Shown: piece by piece, positions 1,607 through 9,459 of the stretch | Layout of the letters: the number at the start of each line of letters is the position of its first letter | Numbering within the stretch: the stretch's first letter is position 1 | Source: Deltaproteobacteria bacterium | GTDB lineage: Bacteria > Desulfobacterota > Dissulfuribacteria > Dissulfuribacterales > QOAL01 | Length of the DNA stretch: 35,739 bases | Reading direction: 5' to 3' | Assembly: GCA_026986785.1 (NCBI GenBank) | Contig: JALSNW010000026.1 | Span: 1 to 35,739, forward strand | The notes under the pieces: model-generated | What the model saw: only the letters and a program-made list of their open reading frames with translations | What the model was told of the DNA's origin: nothing | Databases searched by the model: none | Translations under genes and position numbers: made by a program

Positions 1607-1843
1607 ATGAAGAAAAACATGAAATTCGATACGGCCATCAGGGAGCTTGAGCGGATAGTAAAGGACCTCGAAAGCCAGGAGATGCCTCTTGAAAAGGCAT
1701 TGGCTGCCTTTGAGCAAGGGGTCAAATTGACAAGACACTGTAACAAGCTATTGGAAGAGGCCGAGCAAAAGGTAGAGCTTCTCACAAGGGATCCAGATAC
1801 AGGCGAGGTGGTAAAGACATCTTGGAATGGGGACGAGGGTTAG
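1607..1843 (+). CDS. xseB: Exodeoxyribonuclease VII small subunit
   Basis: This 78-residue protein is the small subunit of exonuclease VII, which pairs with XseA to degrade single-stranded DNA in the cytosol. The sequence follows the XseB pattern: FDTAIRELERIVKDLESQEMPLEKALAAFEQG, then a helical stretch ending in AEQKVELL. Length is normal for the family. A good SD (GGGAGAGGA) lies about 10 bases upstream of the ATG. The large subunit gene is not in the window. The gene ends 1 bp before the stop codon of the converging minus-strand operon at 1845. Confidence 0.92.
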   Translation: MKKNMKFDTAIRELERIVKDLESQEMPLEKALAAFEQGVKLTRHCNKLLEEAEQKVELLTRDPDTGEVVKTSWNGDEG

Positions 1844-1844
1844 G

Positions 1845-3011
1845 TCAATCCTTGGCCTTTATCCAGATCAACATGGCCAGAAAGACTATAGTGCCAATGG
1901 CAGAGGCCATGAGAAACCAATCCAGATGTTGGTACCAGGCCAATATTACCACGAGATAGATAAAATCACGCCTGGAGAGAAAATCCGCTATCTTTACTAT
2001 TCCAGCCCTATTGGACGATGTGGACACAGAGGTATAAAGGGGACCTGGGGCCTTCTTTTCCCTCATGGTAGACAGGTAGATCATGAGTGCACACAAGAAG
2101 GTGCCCATGACTGCTGTTGACGACAGGAAAAGGGGAAGCAGGGAACCTGTGCGCCTCCACCACTCTATCCCAATTGCAGTGAACACGGCTGCATGGACAA
2201 TATTGTCTCCCCAGAAATCGAGTATGCCCCCAAGCCTGCTCTCCTGGAACTTTATTCTGGCAATCTCGCCATCACAACCATCGACAATGGAGTGGACCAG
2301 GAACAAGACAGCCCCTGTAACTTGCCACAGACCCCTTCCAAGGCTGATGAACCATGCCCCTACCAGCCCGATGAGGATACTGACAAGGGTTACCTGATTC
2401 GGGGTAATAGATGTGTTTACGAGGCGCTTGGATATGGCAAGCGAGATACGCCTTTCAACAAATCTGGACATGAAGCCTTCGGTATCCTTGATCAGAGAAC
2501 GAAAAAGGACCCTTTCCACCTTGCGGATCCTTTCAGGGCCTGAGACATCAAAGACTTGTCCCTGCCCGCAAATGGCCTGGCGTCTCGTCAAAAAGGTGTG
2601 GAGAAAGTCGAGCAGTTTGTTATAGCCGTCGTTTTCAAAGGCCTTCTTGAGCTCAAAGCCGTTGTCTGAGGGTGAAAATACGAAAACCCCTGGTAGCTCG
2701 AGTACCTCATGGTCCTTGATCTCTACCTTCAAGAGCCATTTGAGGCAGTGGATATCCGGCAGATGAGTAGGGTTGCACACTATGCAGCGTTCGAAGCCCT
2801 TGTCCCTGAGCCTTGCAAAATCCGTCAGGAGACAGTCCCTGGTTTCTTCGTATGTAGACAGCCCTTCCTCCTCCGAGACGATGAAGGCCGTCTGACTGAG
2901 CCCTGCCCTTTTAGCATGATGATAAAGTCTCTGGGCAAGGCTGAGCCCTGCGATTTTTTGTCTCAGTGCAGATTCCTGCCCCTTTGCTGGTACGAGTAGG
3001 AGGGATGTCAC
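1845..3011 (-). CDS. CDP-alcohol phosphatidyltransferase with degenerate N-terminal domain
   Basis: This 388-residue integral membrane protein carries the CDP-alcohol phosphotransferase signature DxxDGxxAR...GxxxDxxxD at residues 244-269 (D244, D247, D265 and D269 are visible). Several hydrophobic helices lie at about 210-240, 270-310 and 355-380. The segment before it (KDTEGFMSRFVERRISLAIS...TPNQ) resembles bifunctional inositol-phosphate cytidylyltransferase/di-inositol-phosphate synthases. The first ~150 residues look like a nucleotidyltransferase remnant (AGLSLAQRLYHHAKRAG) but lack the GxGxR/K nucleotide loop. The start is taken as GTG at 3011 because AGAGGGG sits 8 bases upstream; a TTG at 3035 has no SD. 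It is the last gene of a four-gene operon, 43 bp after the dehydrogenase. Headgroup and lipid substrates are unknown. Confidence 0.8.
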   Translation of the reverse strand: MTSLLLVPAKGQESALRQKIAGLSLAQRLYHHAKRAGLSQTAFIVSEEEGLSTYEETRDCLLTDFARLRDKGFERCIVCNPTHLPDIHCLKWLLKVEIKDHEVLELPGVFVFSPSDNGFELKKAFENDGYNKLLDFLHTFLTRRQAICGQGQVFDVSGPERIRKVERVLFRSLIKDTEGFMSRFVERRISLAISKRLVNTSITPNQVTLVSILIGLVGAWFISLGRGLWQVTGAVLFLVHSIVDGCDGEIARIKFQESRLGGILDFWGDNIVHAAVFTAIGIEWWRRTGSLLPLFLSSTAVMGTFLCALMIYLSTMREKKAPGPLYTSVSTSSNRAGIVKIADFLSRRDFIYLVVILAWYQHLDWFLMASAIGTIVFLAMLIWIKAKD

Positions 3012-3054
3012 TTGTATCGCCCCTCTTTTAGGCAAATGCTTTAGCTGCCACTCG

Positions 3055-4089
3055 TCAAGCCCTGTTCCAGTCCTCTATCTTGACAGTACCGCCAGCCTTG
3101 TTGGATTTTCTACAGTGATCGAGGATATTGAAGCAACTCGCTGCTTCTTGGAAGTTTCTGCCGGATATTCTGGGATTGTTCATCTCCTCGAGAAATTCCT
3201 CGATCACGGCGCCATACCAGTCTGGATGATGAGATCCTGCTGAAAGTCCTTGGGAAAAGGTGATCTCTGAAGGACCACCTTCCTCTTCTATCAGAATTCT
3301 ATCATCCAGAACCTTTATCGAGCCCCTGCTTCCTTCTATTTCTATTCGATTGCTTCTCTCCTCCCCTGCCCATGTGAAGAAGAGCCTTGCCTCCAACCTT
3401 TTGGGATAGCAAAGGCGTACATCCGCCGTATCTTCCACCTTTATGTCCTTGAACTTTCTCTTCTCCAGGGTGCATTCAACCGATTCAGGCATGGAACAGG
3501 CCCATTCATTTACGAGATAGAATGCATGCCAGCCGTGATCTACCAGGATGCCACCTCCGGCAATGTCTGGATCGAGGCGCCAGTTCCCACAAGCATCGTC
3601 TTGGACGGCTACGGACGGCTGCGTCCTGATCACCTCATAAGTTATCTGTATGATTTGGCCGATCTGTCCTCCCTTGATGAGGCTGCTGACCTTCTGGAGT
3701 ATGGGAGAATATCGCCAGTTGTGGACAGTCACAACAGTCTTGGCAGAGTTCTTCATCGTCTTGGATATAGCTGTCAGGTCTTTGGCCGAGAGGACCAGTG
3801 GCTTTTCACACAATACGTGTCTGCCCGATGCCAATGCCTTCAATATGAAAGGGGCATGGGCTGCTGGAGGTGTGGATACATCTACAAAGTCGATATCCTC
3901 TCTCTCGAATAGTTCTTGGGCAGAGGAATAGAATCTTGAACCTGGGAGGAGCTTGTTGTTGATGGACCTCCTCTCCTCTTGGTTGTCACATACAGCCTGG
4001 ATGGTGATATTGGGGTTGGCTCTGTATGCAGGTACATGGCCGTTGGCTGCAATATGACCAAAACCTATGATTGCTCCCTTTATTGGCAT
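3055..4089 (-). CDS. Gfo/Idh/MocA family oxidoreductase
   Basis: This 344-residue protein has an N-terminal Rossmann fold (GAIIGFGHIAANGH, residues 5-18). The hallmark CEKP motif at 94-97 holds the catalytic lysine. The C-terminal beta-sheet domain has GGGILVDHGWH at 178-188, carrying the usual Asp/His active-site residues. The family oxidises or reduces hydroxyls of sugars, inositols and related polyols with NAD(P). AGGAAGAG lies a few bases upstream of the ATG. It is the third gene of the operon, 18 bp after the aminotransferase. That order suggests it makes the ketone the aminotransferase uses, or reduces a related intermediate; this is inference. The substrate cannot be read from sequence. 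Confidence 0.85.
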   Translation of the reverse strand: MPIKGAIIGFGHIAANGHVPAYRANPNITIQAVCDNQEERRSINNKLLPGSRFYSSAQELFEREDIDFVDVSTPPAAHAPFILKALASGRHVLCEKPLVLSAKDLTAISKTMKNSAKTVVTVHNWRYSPILQKVSSLIKGGQIGQIIQITYEVIRTQPSVAVQDDACGNWRLDPDIAGGGILVDHGWHAFYLVNEWACSMPESVECTLEKRKFKDIKVEDTADVRLCYPKRLEARLFFTWAGEERSNRIEIEGSRGSIKVLDDRILIEEEGGPSEITFSQGLSAGSHHPDWYGAVIEEFLEEMNNPRISGRNFQEAASCFNILDHCRKSNKAGGTVKIEDWNRA

Positions 4090-4107
4090 ATTCTCTTCCT
4101 GTCCAGA

Positions 4108-5445
4108 TCAAAGTGCCTTTTCTATGACCTTGAGGGCACCAGCCAGGGCCTCTACACCCTGGAGTGCCTCGTCTTCAGATATTATGAGTGGGGGATTTAT
4201 CCTTATGTTGTAGCCATAGCACATGGAGATGAGTCCCCGGTCGAGGCATTCGTGGAACAATCTTCTGGTCAGTTTTTTGTCCAGGGGTTCTTTGCTTTTT
4301 CTATCTGCTACCAATTCCACTCCTATCATCAGGCCTTCTCCCCTCACATCCCCAATTATTCCACAGTGTTCCTGCAATTCCAGGAGCTTATCTTTCAATA
4401 TGGCCCCGACCTTTCTCGAATTCTCTATTAGTTTTTCTTCCCTGATTATCTCGAGTACTGCCCGGCCTGCAGCCGCTGCCATGGGATTGCCTCCATAGCT
4501 CGATGAACTGCCACTTGGATTTCCAAAGGGTTTGGCACTTGCCGCCTCCATGGAGCTTGCGATGGCACTCATTGGGAATCCGCCTCCTATGCCCTTGCCA
4601 AGGGTCATCACATCTGGGACGATCCCATCTCTATCTACTCCCCAGGTCCTTCCAGTGCGTCCAAAGCCTGTTATCATTTCATCTGCAATGAGCAGGGCCT
4701 CGAATTCCCTACACATCTCTTGGACGGCCTTTATATAGCCCTTGGGTGGTACCACGTTGCCAGCCGTGCCCTGTATGGTCTCTACCAATATCCCAGCGAT
4801 ATTGTGGGTGCTCTGTCTCTTCAATCCCTCTCTGAACCATTCCAGGCAGGCAAACCCACATTCTGGATGGCTCAGGCCGAAGCTACATCTGTAGCAGTAG
4901 GCATAAGGACCAGGCAGATAGATGCCAGGCATGATGGGCCCCAGTCCTGCCTTGAAGCTCGTGTCACCAAGGAGCCCCATCACCCCGCCTGTTTTGCCAT
5001 GAAAGCCCCCCCAAAATCCAGCGAACTCGTATTTGTGAGTTACGGATTTTGCAAGTCTCAAGGCGGCCTCTACGGCCTCGGCGCCGCCGGAATACATCTG
5101 GACCGCATCGAGCCCTTCCGGAGTCATGGAGGTGAGAAGCCTTAGGAATTCTACCCTGTTTTCCGAGCAAAAGCTGCCAAAATTGGCACGCGCTATCTGG
5201 TCCGAAAGGGTCTTTACATAATGTGGGTGGGCATGTCCTACGCTGCCTACGCCAATACCTGCGGTGAAATCTATGTATCTATTGCCATCCAGGTCCGTCA
5301 CCCATACACCCTTTGCCTCTTTGACCACCAGTCTTGAAAAAAGGGCTATGGATTGAAGGCCCGGGGCCATGTATCTACTCTCCTTATCGAAGACAGCGCT
5401 GGAAATAGGACCAGGCACTTTGTAGGTGTTGTCAGTTTTTTCCAT
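4108..5445 (-). CDS. Class III PLP-dependent aminotransferase
   Basis: This 445-residue enzyme is of the acetylornithine/4-aminobutyrate aminotransferase fold. Visible are the PLP-phosphate region (YSGGAEAVEAALRLAK, about 118-133), the Asp motif IADEMITGFGRTG with D255, and the PLP lysine K284 in TLGKGIGGG. An insertion carries four cysteines (C184, C187, C196, C200; CxxC-x8-CxxxC), as in a subset of archaeal and bacterial GABA/putrescine-type enzymes, and could bind metal. It probably transfers an amino group to a ketone or aldehyde. The SD AGGAG lies 12 bases before the ATG. It follows the ATP-grasp gene by 21 bp in the same operon. Amino donor and acceptor are unknown. Confidence 0.88.
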   Translation of the reverse strand: MEKTDNTYKVPGPISSAVFDKESRYMAPGLQSIALFSRLVVKEAKGVWVTDLDGNRYIDFTAGIGVGSVGHAHPHYVKTLSDQIARANFGSFCSENRVEFLRLLTSMTPEGLDAVQMYSGGAEAVEAALRLAKSVTHKYEFAGFWGGFHGKTGGVMGLLGDTSFKAGLGPIMPGIYLPGPYAYCYRCSFGLSHPECGFACLEWFREGLKRQSTHNIAGILVETIQGTAGNVVPPKGYIKAVQEMCREFEALLIADEMITGFGRTGRTWGVDRDGIVPDVMTLGKGIGGGFPMSAIASSMEAASAKPFGNPSGSSSSYGGNPMAAAAGRAVLEIIREEKLIENSRKVGAILKDKLLELQEHCGIIGDVRGEGLMIGVELVADRKSKEPLDKKLTRRLFHECLDRGLISMCYGYNIRINPPLIISEDEALQGVEALAGALKVIEKAL

Positions 5446-5466
5446 GTTCAGCAGACACTCCTTTAG

Positions 5467-6360
5467 TCAAACTGAAAGGCTCAAGGTATTCTCAAGCCTT
5501 GTGCCGAGTTGGGAAGCGGCACCAAGGTGTTCTACCAATTTTGTCTTGAGCAGTTGGGCTATGAAACCTGCAGCCTCTTGTCTGAAGAGTGCAAAGCTGG
5601 GCCACGCGTTCACGTCTATGACGAAAATTTCGCCCTCTGCGGTGACTATGGCATCTCCTCCATAGATATCGAGCCCCATCAGGTCCCCTGCCATGATACA
5701 GTTGTCCTCGAGTATGGTAGAGGAGAAAGCATATTCTTTCAGGTCCTGCTCCTTGTGATAGAACCATTTGAACCACCAGGTGTGGCCAGCTTGGCTGTCC
5801 CTGATGCAGTAAAATTTTATGATATCTCCAGGCACGTGTTCCTGTACGAGAACTTTCTTTATGTTACGTGCGGAAAATTTGGCCATTGCCGCGGGAAGAG
5901 AGTCTTTGTCCTCTACGAATATGACATCGTCGTCACAGGTCGCATGATAATCTCCTCTCTTCAACCAGCATTGCCTGGAATCATCCAGTGAGGCAGGCAT
6001 GTTGATCTCATGGAGTTTGCTCTCTGGGAAAAAAGGCTGACCCGAAAGGATCTCCACCATCTTGTCCCTAAAGGTATTTTCCACGGCGTGAACAGTGTTC
6101 ACAAGCACACACCCGTGGTCAAGATTCATCTGTCGTAGTCTTTCCAGATAAGGTGCTTCTTCACACATAAAAAAAATAAGTGCTGGTAATACATCAAGGT
6201 TTGTATGTAGGAATTCTTCAGGTAGGAAGAGCTCCACATCTATCTCTGGAGAGTCAGACAGGAATCTTGCTGTCTGTCTGAGAATGGCCTCGTCATCATA
6301 TTCTCTCCTGGGAGAGTGTGATTTCTCCCTGAATATTCCAAAGACTGGTATCTTTTTCAT
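5467..6360 (-). CDS. ATP-grasp family protein (RimK/inositol-kinase-like), first gene of operon
   Basis: The 297-residue sequence has ATP-grasp traits: a central nucleotide-binding segment (KVLVQEHVPGDIIKFYCI), an acidic metal-binding region (YGGDAIVTAEGEIFVIDVNAWPSF), and the closing acidic/Asn pair D-x-N near residue 260. Family members ligate an amino or carboxylate substrate through an acyl-phosphate, or phosphorylate inositols. The N-terminal part (MKKIPVFGIFREKSHSPRREYDDEAIL) is a pre-ATP-grasp domain. The start ATG has AGGATG about 9 bases upstream. It opens the four-gene operon, so its product may activate or ligate the small molecule later handled by the aminotransferase and dehydrogenase. 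The exact reaction is unknown. Confidence 0.75.
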   Translation of the reverse strand: MKKIPVFGIFREKSHSPRREYDDEAILRQTARFLSDSPEIDVELFLPEEFLHTNLDVLPALIFFMCEEAPYLERLRQMNLDHGCVLVNTVHAVENTFRDKMVEILSGQPFFPESKLHEINMPASLDDSRQCWLKRGDYHATCDDDVIFVEDKDSLPAAMAKFSARNIKKVLVQEHVPGDIIKFYCIRDSQAGHTWWFKWFYHKEQDLKEYAFSSTILEDNCIMAGDLMGLDIYGGDAIVTAEGEIFVIDVNAWPSFALFRQEAAGFIAQLLKTKLVEHLGAASQLGTRLENTLSLSV

Positions 6361-6754
6361 TTGATTACATCCTAAAAAGAGGAATCCCCCAAACCGTTTC
6401 TTTTGAAAAAATCAAATTCTTCTTTATACTATGCCTTAAATAGTTAGAGAAGTATTTTCTGAAAAGCCGATGGGTAGGATGGAGGCGAACCCTTTTGATT
6501 TCAGCAGGTTGTCGGGGTTTCTGTGCTGGCCTCAAGACTTTTGTCCCAGAATCCTTCCGGGGAGATGTCTGAGACGAGTCATGTTTGTATGGCCCCAGAT
6601 TGTAAAATTTTGCACAACAATGAGAACTCCTTTTCTCTTCAGCTGATAAAATATCATGTTTCCCTTATTTTCTTGACTAATTCACTTTTTTGAGGGACAA
6701 TAGGAAAAATTTTTCTTATTGTCTTTTGTTTTCAAAGCGGATCGGGAAAATTTG
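6361..6754. other. Divergent intergenic region
   Basis: This 394-bp AT-rich region separates the minus-strand operon from the plus-strand sigma54 activator gene. No RNA gene is recognised. It contains a candidate sigma70 promoter for the activator gene (6673-6701). A weak minus-strand TATAAA box near 6430 could serve the operon. No sigma54 -24/-12 element was found on either strand. Confidence 0.5.
6673..6701 (+). promoter_or_regulatory. Candidate sigma70 promoter for the sigma54 activator gene
   Basis: TTGACT (6673-6678) and GACAAT (6696-6701) are separated by 17 bp. The -35 is close to consensus and the -10 is weaker. The predicted transcript start near 6708 would leave a leader of about 47 nt before the ATG at 6755. 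There is no experimental support. Confidence 0.35.
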
Positions 6755-7828
6755 ATGGACTTAATCATAGGTAAGAGCCAGCCAATCAAGCAGTTGAAAA
6801 ACCTTATCAGGCAGGTGGCTGATACTGGCTTGAATGTCTTGGTCTGTGGAGAGAGCGGGGTCGGCAAGGAGGTTGTAGCCAGAAGCCTTCACAGACAGTC
6901 TGCCCGGTCGAGCAAGCCCTTCATAAAAGTCAATTGTGCAGCCCTTCCCAGCGAGCTTTTGGAAAGCGAGCTTTTCGGTTATGAGAAAGGGGCGTTTACA
7001 GGGGCTGCAGAGGCAAAACCTGGCAAGTTCGAGCTCGCAAACAAGGGAGCCATCTTTTTGGACGAGATCGGTGACATGTCCATAGCCCTGCAGGCAAAGC
7101 TCTTACAGGTCCTGCAGGATTCCGAATTCTGCCGCGTCGGCGGTATCAAGGATATAAAGGTAGATGTCTGGATAATATGTGCCACCCATCATGACCTTGA
7201 GGTTGATATCCAAAAGGGTAAATTCAGAGAGGACCTCTTTTACCGGATCAACATCATCAAGATAAAGGTGCCTCCACTCAGGGAGAGGAAAGAGGATATT
7301 CCACTCTTGGTAGATCATTTTTTGGAGAAGTACACTGCTGCCCTTAATCGCCGTCCATCGGACATCCACCTGCCTCAGGAACTTTTCGACACCTTTTTCA
7401 AGTATCATTGGCCTGGCAATGTCAGGGAACTCGAGAACTATGTACAAAAGATCTTGGTCCTGGGAGATGCACAGCCTGTCATAGAGGAATTGGAAGCCAG
7501 AAGTATCCAGGGAGTAGATGCTGTCAGGGGCGAAGATCATTGGAATCAGGAGGAGTTCCTGCTCAATTCTGTAATAGGTGGGATAACAAACGACCTGGGG
7601 AATAATTTTCCGTCTTTGAAGGAGATCAAGAAAAAGGCCCAGGCGAAGGTCGAGAAGGTAGTGATAGAAGAGGCCCTCAGAAGGACGGCAGGGAATAAGA
7701 GGGATGCAGCAAAGTTGTTGCAAATCAGCTACAAGGCGATCCTATACAAGATACGTGATTACAAAATAAACATCGAGCCTGAAGAATTTCTCAACAACAG
7801 TATCCGTCTCACCATACCGCGGCACTGA
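6755..7828 (+). CDS. Sigma54-dependent transcriptional activator lacking a sensory domain
   Basis: This 357-residue protein consists only of the AAA+ sigma54-interaction domain and a Fis-type helix-turn-helix. Walker A is GESGVGKE (about residues 32-39), the sigma54-contact loop GAFTGA is at 79-84, Walker B is IFLDEIGD, and the arginine-finger region is REDLFYRIN. The C-terminal HTH is [28 protein letters not shown]. An in-frame stop at 6701-6703 leaves no room for an N-terminal receiver, PAS or GAF domain, so this is a PspF/HrpR-like single-domain activator. The ATG at 6755 begins just before the conserved [11 protein letters not shown]; a TTG at 6719 is possible. The target promoter was not found in the window. 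It would be controlled by an interacting protein or by its own level. Confidence 0.88.
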
Positions 7829-8001: not shown

Positions 8002-9459
8002 ATGCTTGGACAAAAGGGCCATCTAAAAGAGATTGCAGGTAAGGAGCGCAGGAGATTTCCACGGGTACAGGCCCAGATCCCTGTATATTTCAAGACAGGT
8101 GCATCCAAAACCCAGGTTACAGGTATTACCAGAGACGTATCTCCCTATGGCCTCCAGCTCTATACGAAGAAGGCAGACATTAGACCAAATGACAAGATAA
8201 GATTCGTTGCGCCAGAGGGGCAATCACCAGGCCTCTGTCTGGATTTCCAGGGCAGTGTCATCTGGACAGACAGGAAAGAGGATGCCACCCACCTGGGCTT
8301 GGTATTCGACAACAATATGGAAGAGGTCATAAATTATCTGCTCTTATTGGCTTTTTCCGAGGATACCCTCTTGGGGTCGAGTTTTTTTCAGTCATTGCTG
8401 GACAGTCTTCCAGATCCTGCGATCCTACTCGACAATCAGTTAAGGATAAAGGCTATCAGTTCAAATCAGCCCATCCTGCCATGCGATCCCAGTATCTTGG
8501 TGGGAGAGAAGATAGGAGAGGCCCCAACCATCTTGAAACAGTTGGCAAGTCCAGAGTTTGAACCAAGAAAGGCAATGGCGGAATGCCTGTTCAAGCGCCA
8601 TATCATGCATTTTAGTGCCCTGCCCCTCAACATGGGAAGGGATGAAGAGGCAGAGAAACGATATTTCAATGTCTTATTAAAACCAGTATCTGTTGGTCAT
8701 GGGCGGGACATGATCTTCGTACAGATCAGAGACGTCACCATGCTATGTAAGCTCAAGGAAAAGATACGGGAGAGGAACAATGCCCTCTGGAGCCAGTATA
8801 AGTTCATGACCATGGGGCAGATAGTGGACGAGTTGCTCGAAGATCTCATCAGCCCCCTATCCGCCATTGTGGGAAGGCTTGATCTTCTCACCATGAAGAT
8901 GAATAGCGTTTACGAATCTGGTGGAAAGGTTGCAGTGGGGGAGTGGTTGAAGGAGCTTCAGATCATTGATGGACTGGTTGAGCAGATCACTGAATTCTGT
9001 ACTGTAGCGGCCAAGAGGCGCGAGAGAGAAAAACTTGGCTCCATGGTCAAGACCATCTCTTTCAACAAATTGATCGAAGAGACACTTCTGGTATTGAAGC
9101 CCAAGTCGTCATTTCGGGCAGTGAACATCCATCTCAGGTTCAAGACAGACCTGCCAGAGTTCCAGGGGGATTATTTCGATTGGTTGAATGCCTTGATCGC
9201 CTTGTTTCAAACTATCATAAAGGAAATGGATACCCTGTCCCACAAGGAGATGACGGTGATCACCGACGTACAAGAGGACTGGATAATATTGTCTATCTCT
9301 CATAATGCCAGGGCCCTCAAGATACCCCTCGAAAGGGAGATGGGGCTTGGTATCCTAGAGGTCTTAAGAGAAAAATACGGCGTCTCGATCAAGACACACG
9401 GAGACAACGGTAGTCAGACCATAGTTTTCAGGGTAAGAATCCAGGAAGATGTTCGATAA
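8002..9459 (+). CDS. PilZ-PAS protein with degenerate histidine-kinase core
   Basis: This 485-residue cytosolic protein starts with a PilZ c-di-GMP-binding domain: RRRFPR at 16-21 and DVSPYG at 45-50, matching RxxxR and D/NxSxxG. A PAS-like segment follows at about 125-245 (FFQSLLDSLPDPAILLDNQLRI). Next comes a DHp-like helix pair at about 262-335 and an ATPase-like C-terminus. The kinase core looks inactive. Where active kinases have HExNNP, this reads EDLISP, with Glu280 in place of the phosphorylated His. The N-box Asn is missing and the G1-box DNG is HNA (434-436). Only the GLG of the G2 box (448-450) survives. SD AAAGGG precedes the ATG by about 8 bases. It probably works as a c-di-GMP-responsive scaffold or partner-binding regulator, with the receiver protein or the sigma54 activator as possible partners (inference). 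Confidence 0.8.
   Translation: MLGQKGHLKEIAGKERRRFPRVQAQIPVYFKTGASKTQVTGITRDVSPYGLQLYTKKADIRPNDKIRFVAPEGQSPGLCLDFQGSVIWTDRKEDATHLGLVFDNNMEEVINYLLLLAFSEDTLLGSSFFQSLLDSLPDPAILLDNQLRIKAISSNQPILPCDPSILVGEKIGEAPTILKQLASPEFEPRKAMAECLFKRHIMHFSALPLNMGRDEEAEKRYFNVLLKPVSVGHGRDMIFVQIRDVTMLCKLKEKIRERNNALWSQYKFMTMGQIVDELLEDLISPLSAIVGRLDLLTMKMNSVYESGGKVAVGEWLKELQIIDGLVEQITEFCTVAAKRREREKLGSMVKTISFNKLIEETLLVLKPKSSFRAVNIHLRFKTDLPEFQGDYFDWLNALIALFQTIIKEMDTLSHKEMTVITDVQEDWIILSISHNARALKIPLEREMGLGILEVLREKYGVSIKTHGDNGSQTIVFRVRIQEDVR

Follow-up and report, generated by a model that had tools for sequence, protein, structure and literature searches.

An operon of ATP-grasp, aminotransferase, dehydrogenase and CDP-alcohol phosphotransferase genes in a Desulfobacterota bacterium, with a predicted role in amino-inositol headgroup synthesis

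The contig JALSNW010000026.1 of a Deltaproteobacteria bacterium (GCA_026986785.1; Desulfobacterota, Dissulfuribacterales), analysed here over its whole stretch of 35,739 nucleotides (the window), carries adjacent genes for an ATP-grasp protein, a class III aminotransferase (AT3), a Gfo/Idh/MocA dehydrogenase (GFO) and a CDP-alcohol phosphotransferase (CDPOH), and the question raised by this locus is which compound the four enzymes make together. A first-pass annotation, based on the sequence alone, had suggested an unusual lipid headgroup or phosphodiester solute. The present analysis suggests that the operon contributes amination, phosphorylation and final transfer to the making of an amino-inositol headgroup linked by a phosphodiester; this predicted scheme is held, as a whole, with about even confidence, while the inositol connection alone merits a higher one. 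The operon covers one half of a pathway that extends beyond it: the four-gene reading had the chemistry largely right, but was incomplete in lacking a HAD phosphatase, a MobA/LicC-like nucleotidyltransferase (NTPT) and myo-inositol-1-phosphate synthase (MIPS). It also did not include the strong association with hopanoid genes or the degenerate cytidylyltransferase domain of CDPOH. The pathway is larger, wider spread and more similar to a putative cluster already in print than was visible to the annotation.

Operon structure and conservation

All four open reading frames are intact and lie on the minus strand in one tight operon. The first gene (5467..6360) encodes the ATP-grasp protein (297 aa), proposed to be an ITPK-like inositol/inosamine kinase; it is followed by AT3 (4108..5445, 445 aa; PF00202, 324 bits), a proposed inosose aminotransferase, by GFO (3055..4089, 344 aa; PF01408/PF22725), a proposed myo-inositol dehydrogenase, and by CDPOH (1845..3035, 396 aa from the TTG at 3035; PF01066, 44.5 bits). 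The intergenic gaps are 21, 18 and 19 bp in operon order, and the last becomes 43 bp when CDPOH is started at an alternative GTG (3011), the start position in relatives, in agreement with the annotated range of 18-43 bp. The annotated families of AT3, GFO and CDPOH are likewise backed by Pfam matches. The ATP-grasp protein remains under all Pfam cut-offs (RimK PF08443, 12.9 vs 21 bits), yet its AlphaFold2 model (pLDDT 91, pTM 0.88) shows the ATP-grasp fold that had been read from its sequence.

The grouping of these genes is not due to chance, because the set recurs across phyla and the protein distances are correlated. Among 60 relatives, the ATP-grasp protein is present in 14 (13 from the window's own family and one from another), and AT3 orthologues (54-89% identity) are confined to the same 14 genomes, the next-best class III proteins reaching no more than 40%. 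A wider sample of the phylum (395 Desulfobacterota genomes) holds the ATP-grasp protein in 29, and within 9 kb of it, at 21 loci of other Desulfobacterota families, are found AT3 (19 loci), NTPT (20), HAD (20) and CDPOH (17). Furthermore, in a scan of GTDB genomes the ATP-grasp family was encoded at no fewer than 590 places, and 80 of these were kept; among the matches listed, 13 loci from Alphaproteobacteria, Methylomirabilota, Nitrospirota, Elusimicrobia, Rokubacteria, Acidobacteria and Verrucomicrobia all hold AT3, GFO, NTPT and CDPOH. The gene set thus occurs both within and beyond the window's family in Desulfobacterota, and at least seven further phyla have it as well. Pairwise protein distances of the module correlate with r of 0.77-0.90 over 29 loci (0 of 999 permutations as high), as expected for a co-inherited unit, with a contribution from host relatedness. 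Conservation of the neighbourhood, named by the first-pass annotation as one way to check its reading, thus bears out a co-inherited operon of the four families.

Inositol supply and the proposed route

The remaining steps are supplied by genes that other genomes join to the operon. Four same-family relatives (G007, G010, G013 and G015) carry HAD-NTPT directly upstream of the ATP-grasp gene in the order hpnA-hpnL-hpnM-HAD-NTPT-ATP-grasp, followed by AT3-GFO-CDPOH as far as the contigs reach. HAD and NTPT accompany these genes in most of the distant matches as well. Nearer relatives (L256-L260) hold hpnA-hpnL-hpnM-HAD-NTPT as a separate operon, the end of which stands at the edge of contig C47 of the window genome (L254), with HAD cut by the contig end and NTPT matched at E 7e-78. 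The genome also encodes MIPS on contig C22, unlinked to the operon (PF01658 over its cut-off; NCBIfam mycothiol_INO1 453 bits, under the cut-off of 638). MIPS is the last operon gene in L178, L139 (Methylomirabilota), L141, L143 (Elusimicrobia) and L188 (Bacteroidota), with the full order HpnL-HAD-NTPT-ATP-grasp-AT3-GFO-CDPOH-MIPS in L178, and within the phylum sample it is found in 26/29 ATP-grasp-positive vs 191/366 negative genomes (p 6e-5). Because of this presence in the operons and this enrichment, inositol is the likely substrate, as the annotated inositol-like compound had anticipated.

The proposed route would begin with MIPS (contig C22), giving inositol-1-phosphate, from which HAD (contig C47) would release free myo-inositol. 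GFO would then oxidise one hydroxyl to an inosose, AT3 would transaminate the inosose to an inosamine, and the ITPK-like ATP-grasp protein would phosphorylate it; NTPT (contig C47) and CTP would give CDP-inosamine, and CDPOH would pass phospho-inosamine to an acceptor alcohol in the membrane; this acceptor is most likely lipid, either diacylglycerol or a hopanoid polyol. The product lipid may then be transported by HpnL/HpnM-type proteins. All substrates, the order of the steps and the acceptor are what we infer. The oxidation and amination suggested earlier are supported. The best NCBIfam match of GFO is inositol 2-dehydrogenase (TIGR04380, 80 bits, below the cut-off of 355), and its EKP and DHGWH motifs are conserved. 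Streptidine synthesis starts from myo-inositol and proceeds through scyllo-inosose, scyllo-inosamine and inosamine phosphate, and the logic of this aminocyclitol route (MIPS, phosphatase, inositol dehydrogenase, aminotransferase and kinase) is that of the proposed pathway, although other families carry out its transamination and phosphorylation and its product goes to an antibiotic rather than to CDP activation. The predicted logic would thus parallel a streptidine-like start followed by Kennedy-type activation.

A similar core has been reported in the putative alternative inositol-lipid cluster of Bacteroides/Prevotella, proposed for phosphatidylinositol (PI) lipids in B. vulgatus, which comprises an NTP transferase (BVU_RS13095), a CDP-alcohol phosphotransferase (BVU_RS13105), a HAD protein (BVU_RS13115) and MIPS (Heaver et al., 2022; PMC9246714); B. 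vulgatus makes PI-dihydroceramide (PI-DHC), and an ATP-grasp protein is not mentioned there (PMC9246714). The MobA/LicC-like NTP transferase and the other three families are common to this cluster and the window pathway, but in the window genome MIPS, NTPT and HAD are unlinked to the operon. In two Phocaeicola loci (L181, L192), a homologous ATP-grasp gene separates NTPT from CDPOH, and an HpnL-like gene separates CDPOH from HAD, so that, judged by gene order, BVU_RS13100 is probably the ATP-grasp protein and BVU_RS13110 the HpnL-like protein. Among the matches listed, 60 such core loci (mostly labelled Bacteroidota) include AT3 and GFO only in L148 and L188, and the Bacteroidales CDPOH, which lacks the N-terminal domain and has a long insertion and other motif spacing, does not belong to the subfamily of the window CDPOH. 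From this comparison of gene content, the window operon can be described as the Bacteroidetes core with an added oxidation-amination pair and another CDPOH subfamily. The absence of GFO and AT3 from this cluster, the function of which is likewise putative, is as expected if the ATP-grasp protein acts as a kinase and the amine is introduced by AT3/GFO. The comparison further suggests that a kinase has been overlooked in these putative inositol-lipid clusters of gut Bacteroidales. The earlier statement that no described pathway has exactly this set is therefore correct for the full set, all four members of which are matched by no known pathway, and has to be revised for the core, which equals the putative Bacteroidetes cluster. 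A class of amino-inositol phosphodiester lipids is predicted by this gene set, which is conserved across at least eight phyla. No report of such lipids was found; the literature gave nothing relevant on inosamine phospholipids or inositol-bearing bacteriohopanepolyols. Bacteroidales-like clusters are also present in L158 and L171 (labelled Lachnospiraceae and Clostridium), where binning contamination is possible.

The ATP-grasp protein as kinase or ligase

The earlier reading left ligation and phosphorylation side by side, and fold comparison of the ATP-grasp model does not decide between them, as RimK, LysX, CPS, Ddl, PPIP5K and ITPK all score at Z 19-21 (RimK 21.4, LysX/ArgX 20.9, PPIP5K2 19.1 and human ITPK1 18.9). 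Motifs and the catalytic-half profile favour phosphorylation. Residues K182, Y184, D236, D249, N251, W253, P254 and S255 are invariant in 87/87 ATP-grasp homologues, all of which carry the strand (I/V)K(F/Y)Y, and KRGDxH stands at the place of the ligases' glycine-rich ATP loop. The catalytic half matches ITPKs first (AtITPK4 1.4e-4, human ITPK1 8e-4), ahead of PsnB (4e-3) and RimK (0.013), and the motifs IKFYG and DLNDWPSF of the window protein compare with FKFYV and DLNYLPSF of AtITPK4. ITPK and PPIP5K thus have the fold (Z about 19) and the KxY and IDxNxxPS motifs in common with the window protein, which differs in being bacterial, in its probably unphosphorylated substrate and in falling below the PF05770 (ITPK) cut-off; 4/19 family members match that model (best E 0.0034, below cut-off). 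In maize ITPK1 (ZmITPK1), Lys198 and Tyr200 coordinate inositol 5-phosphate (PMC7614388), and K182 and Y184 would correspond to these residues by motif spacing. A kinase rather than a ligase is therefore the favoured candidate function, and because phosphate would be taken off, the ring modified and phosphate put back on, a kinase would also account for the pairing of HAD with the ATP-grasp protein.

The alternative that survives best, though we regard it as unlikely, is that the protein is a ligase that attaches an amino acid or another carboxylate to the amine (or a hydroxyl) by acylation, the MIPS product passing directly to NTPT. RimK does exceed ITPK/PPIP5K in the fold comparison, and the whole-length profile places PsnB (4e-7) and RimK (3e-5) ahead of ITPK (4e-4). 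Nevertheless, PsnB (DVRVY) and RimK (DIRCF) carry Arg where the family has its invariant Lys, the glycine-rich loop is replaced and the catalytic half is nearer to ITPK. Furthermore, the ATP-grasp gene lies beside NTPT and HAD in aminotransferase-free Bacteroidales, so that no amine would be available there for acylation.

Several observations weigh against the amino-inositol scheme, beginning with the whole-length comparisons, in which the ligases PsnB, RimK and LysX rank no lower than ITPK and PPIP5K. GFO is found near the ATP-grasp gene in 13 of the 21 loci of other Desulfobacterota families and was undetected in the other 8, neither GFO nor AT3 is above the cut-off for any specific inositol family, and class III enzymes also include racemases and lyases. 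MIPS was not found in G291 despite the module there. Motif I of the HAD family is DxGGTLD, with Gly replacing the usual second Asp, which makes phosphatase activity less certain than in canonical HADs, and if Bacteroidales make plain PI only, the reason for removal and re-addition of phosphate is unclear. Finally, the nearest relatives of CDPOH, AF2299 and DIPPS, are not lipid-processing (PMC4634129), and a soluble product is possible.

Membrane transfer, acceptor and genomic context

Residues 188-396 of CDPOH form the membrane catalytic domain with an intact motif (DGCDGEIAR...GGILDFWGD); the CDP-alcohol phosphotransferase signature DxxDGxxAR...GxxxDxxxD is present as DGCDGEIARIKFQESRLGGILDFWGD at residue 252, in accordance with the membrane enzyme annotated for the last transfer. 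Residues 9-180 are a degenerate cytidylyltransferase-like domain in which GxGxR and PKPL are lost; it matches the separate NTPT family (profile P 2.8e-6) and resembles IspD in fold (Z about 14). The CDPOH model has a six-TM-like (transmembrane) architecture and is nearest to AF2299 (Z 27.9), followed by IPCT/DIPPS (Z 25.9). These Archaeoglobus proteins (4mnd, 4o6m) resemble CDPOH in fusing a cytidylyltransferase-like domain to the membrane domain. A CDP-headgroup donor is likely, because AF2299 uses CDP-glycerol and IPCT/DIPPS CDP-inositol, both CDP-linked small alcohols. The window's CDPOH differs from them in that its N-terminal domain lacks GxGxR and PKPL, cytidylyltransferase activity probably residing in a separate protein, and in the additional oxidation, amination and ATP-grasp steps of its pathway. 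A plain DIP-synthase identity was rejected for CDPOH (IPCT/DIPPS NF041135, 102.9 bits against a cut-off of 580). In L093, L094, L096, L097 and L099, CDPOH is accompanied by a B12-binding-type radical SAM protein (~443 aa), for which the nearest models are BchE/HpnJ-like, all below their cut-offs.

Gene context connects the module to hopanoids. Within the phylum, HpnH is found in 24/29 genomes with the ATP-grasp protein vs 46/366 without it (p 1e-15; Fisher's test, which ignores phylogeny). In other phyla it is found in 12/13 genomes from outside Bacteroidota, as against 0/9 genomes labelled Bacteroidota or Clostridium. The window genome holds SHC and HpnH, HpnA, HpnL and HpnM are operon partners in its family (with HpnG and MlaA-like genes divergent), and in G071 (L087) the module adjoins HpnH, IspH and HpnN. 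This link may arise because the acceptor is a hopanoid, because a transport route is shared or only because the lineages are. Under the first of these, the chemistry would be unchanged and CDPOH would use a hopanoid polyol (bacteriohopanetetrol or a relative) to give a phospho-(amino)inositol hopanoid, which the co-operonic hpn genes and the enrichment make conceivable but which we consider doubtful. Bacteroidales carry the core without hopanoid genes, and neither SHC nor HpnH was found in G302, G391, G434 (L148) and G441 (L188), two of them metagenome-assembled genomes of unknown completeness, although all four hold the ATP-grasp protein and AT3; the co-occurrence may also stem from common ancestry or from a common involvement in lipid traffic at the outer membrane. 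It is similarly speculative that hopanoid producers contain an unknown lipid class, in which a hopanoid polyol bears a phosphodiester-linked amino-inositol, made via a bacterial ITPK-like kinase that also serves the Bacteroidales inositol-lipid clusters. The genes hpnA, hpnL and hpnM have no known role in hopanoid biology (PMC12583986), and the proposed scheme offers candidate functions for their neighbours. Hopanoid operons of the type HpnL-TolC-HpnN-HpnM without the ATP-grasp gene occur in L212, L213, L221 and L223; near HpnM they contain a CDP-alcohol phosphotransferase of another subfamily (DGxDGEVARL...FGHYLDI). The window genome's HpnH (G000:C52, L220) lies beside DUF116, LytB/IspH and family 2 glycosyltransferase genes.

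A soluble phosphodiester, which CDPOH would form from CDP-(amino)inositol and either an inositol phosphate or a soluble alcohol, as happens in di-myo-inositol phosphate synthesis, and from which HAD would strip the remaining phosphate, appears improbable. The trafficking-gene context (HpnL, HpnM, HpnN, TolC and MlaA-like genes) indicates envelope lipids and favours a lipid product, whereas the closest solved relatives of CDPOH by sequence and fold, neither of them lipid-processing, favour a soluble acceptor, as do its six-TM-like model and the standard MIPS and IPCT/DIPPS operons within the same taxonomic order (L065-L067). However, G013 and G015 hold the module together with a separate full-length IPCT/DIPPS-like protein beside MIPS; therefore, the module is unnecessary for di-myo-inositol phosphate (DIP). 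Standard operons of MIPS and bifunctional IPCT/DIPPS, probably for DIP, were seen in L065, L066, L067 and L227, within the same order or phylum.

Ordinary aminohopanoid synthesis, with AT3 as HpnO (35-aminobacteriohopanetriol formation), is very improbable: HpnO is a class III aminotransferase that is hard to distinguish from others (PMC12583986) and hopanoid genes are present in the window genome and in the operons with hpnA, hpnL and hpnM of its family, but AT3 is accompanied by GFO, ATP-grasp and NTPT in genomes where SHC and HpnH were not found, while hpnO usually lies outside hpn clusters (PMC12583986) and HpnO requires no CDP-alcohol step.

The neighbouring genes in the window, a sigma-54 activator and xseB, are outside the unit, as judged by conservation. 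The activator gene, without a receiver domain (6719-7828, plus strand), is divergent from the operon and followed by a PilZ-domain protein gene (8002-9459, plus strand); it was rejected as a member of the system, as it was not seen beside the operon in congeners, and the number of -24/-12 promoter matches across the window is about what chance would give (20 found vs 18.8 expected). On the other side, an xseB-like gene (exodeoxyribonuclease VII small subunit, read by eye; 1607-1843, plus strand) converges on the CDPOH end with a 1-bp gap, and together with a 5-FTHF cyclo-ligase gene (991-1557) it borders the operon in several relatives.

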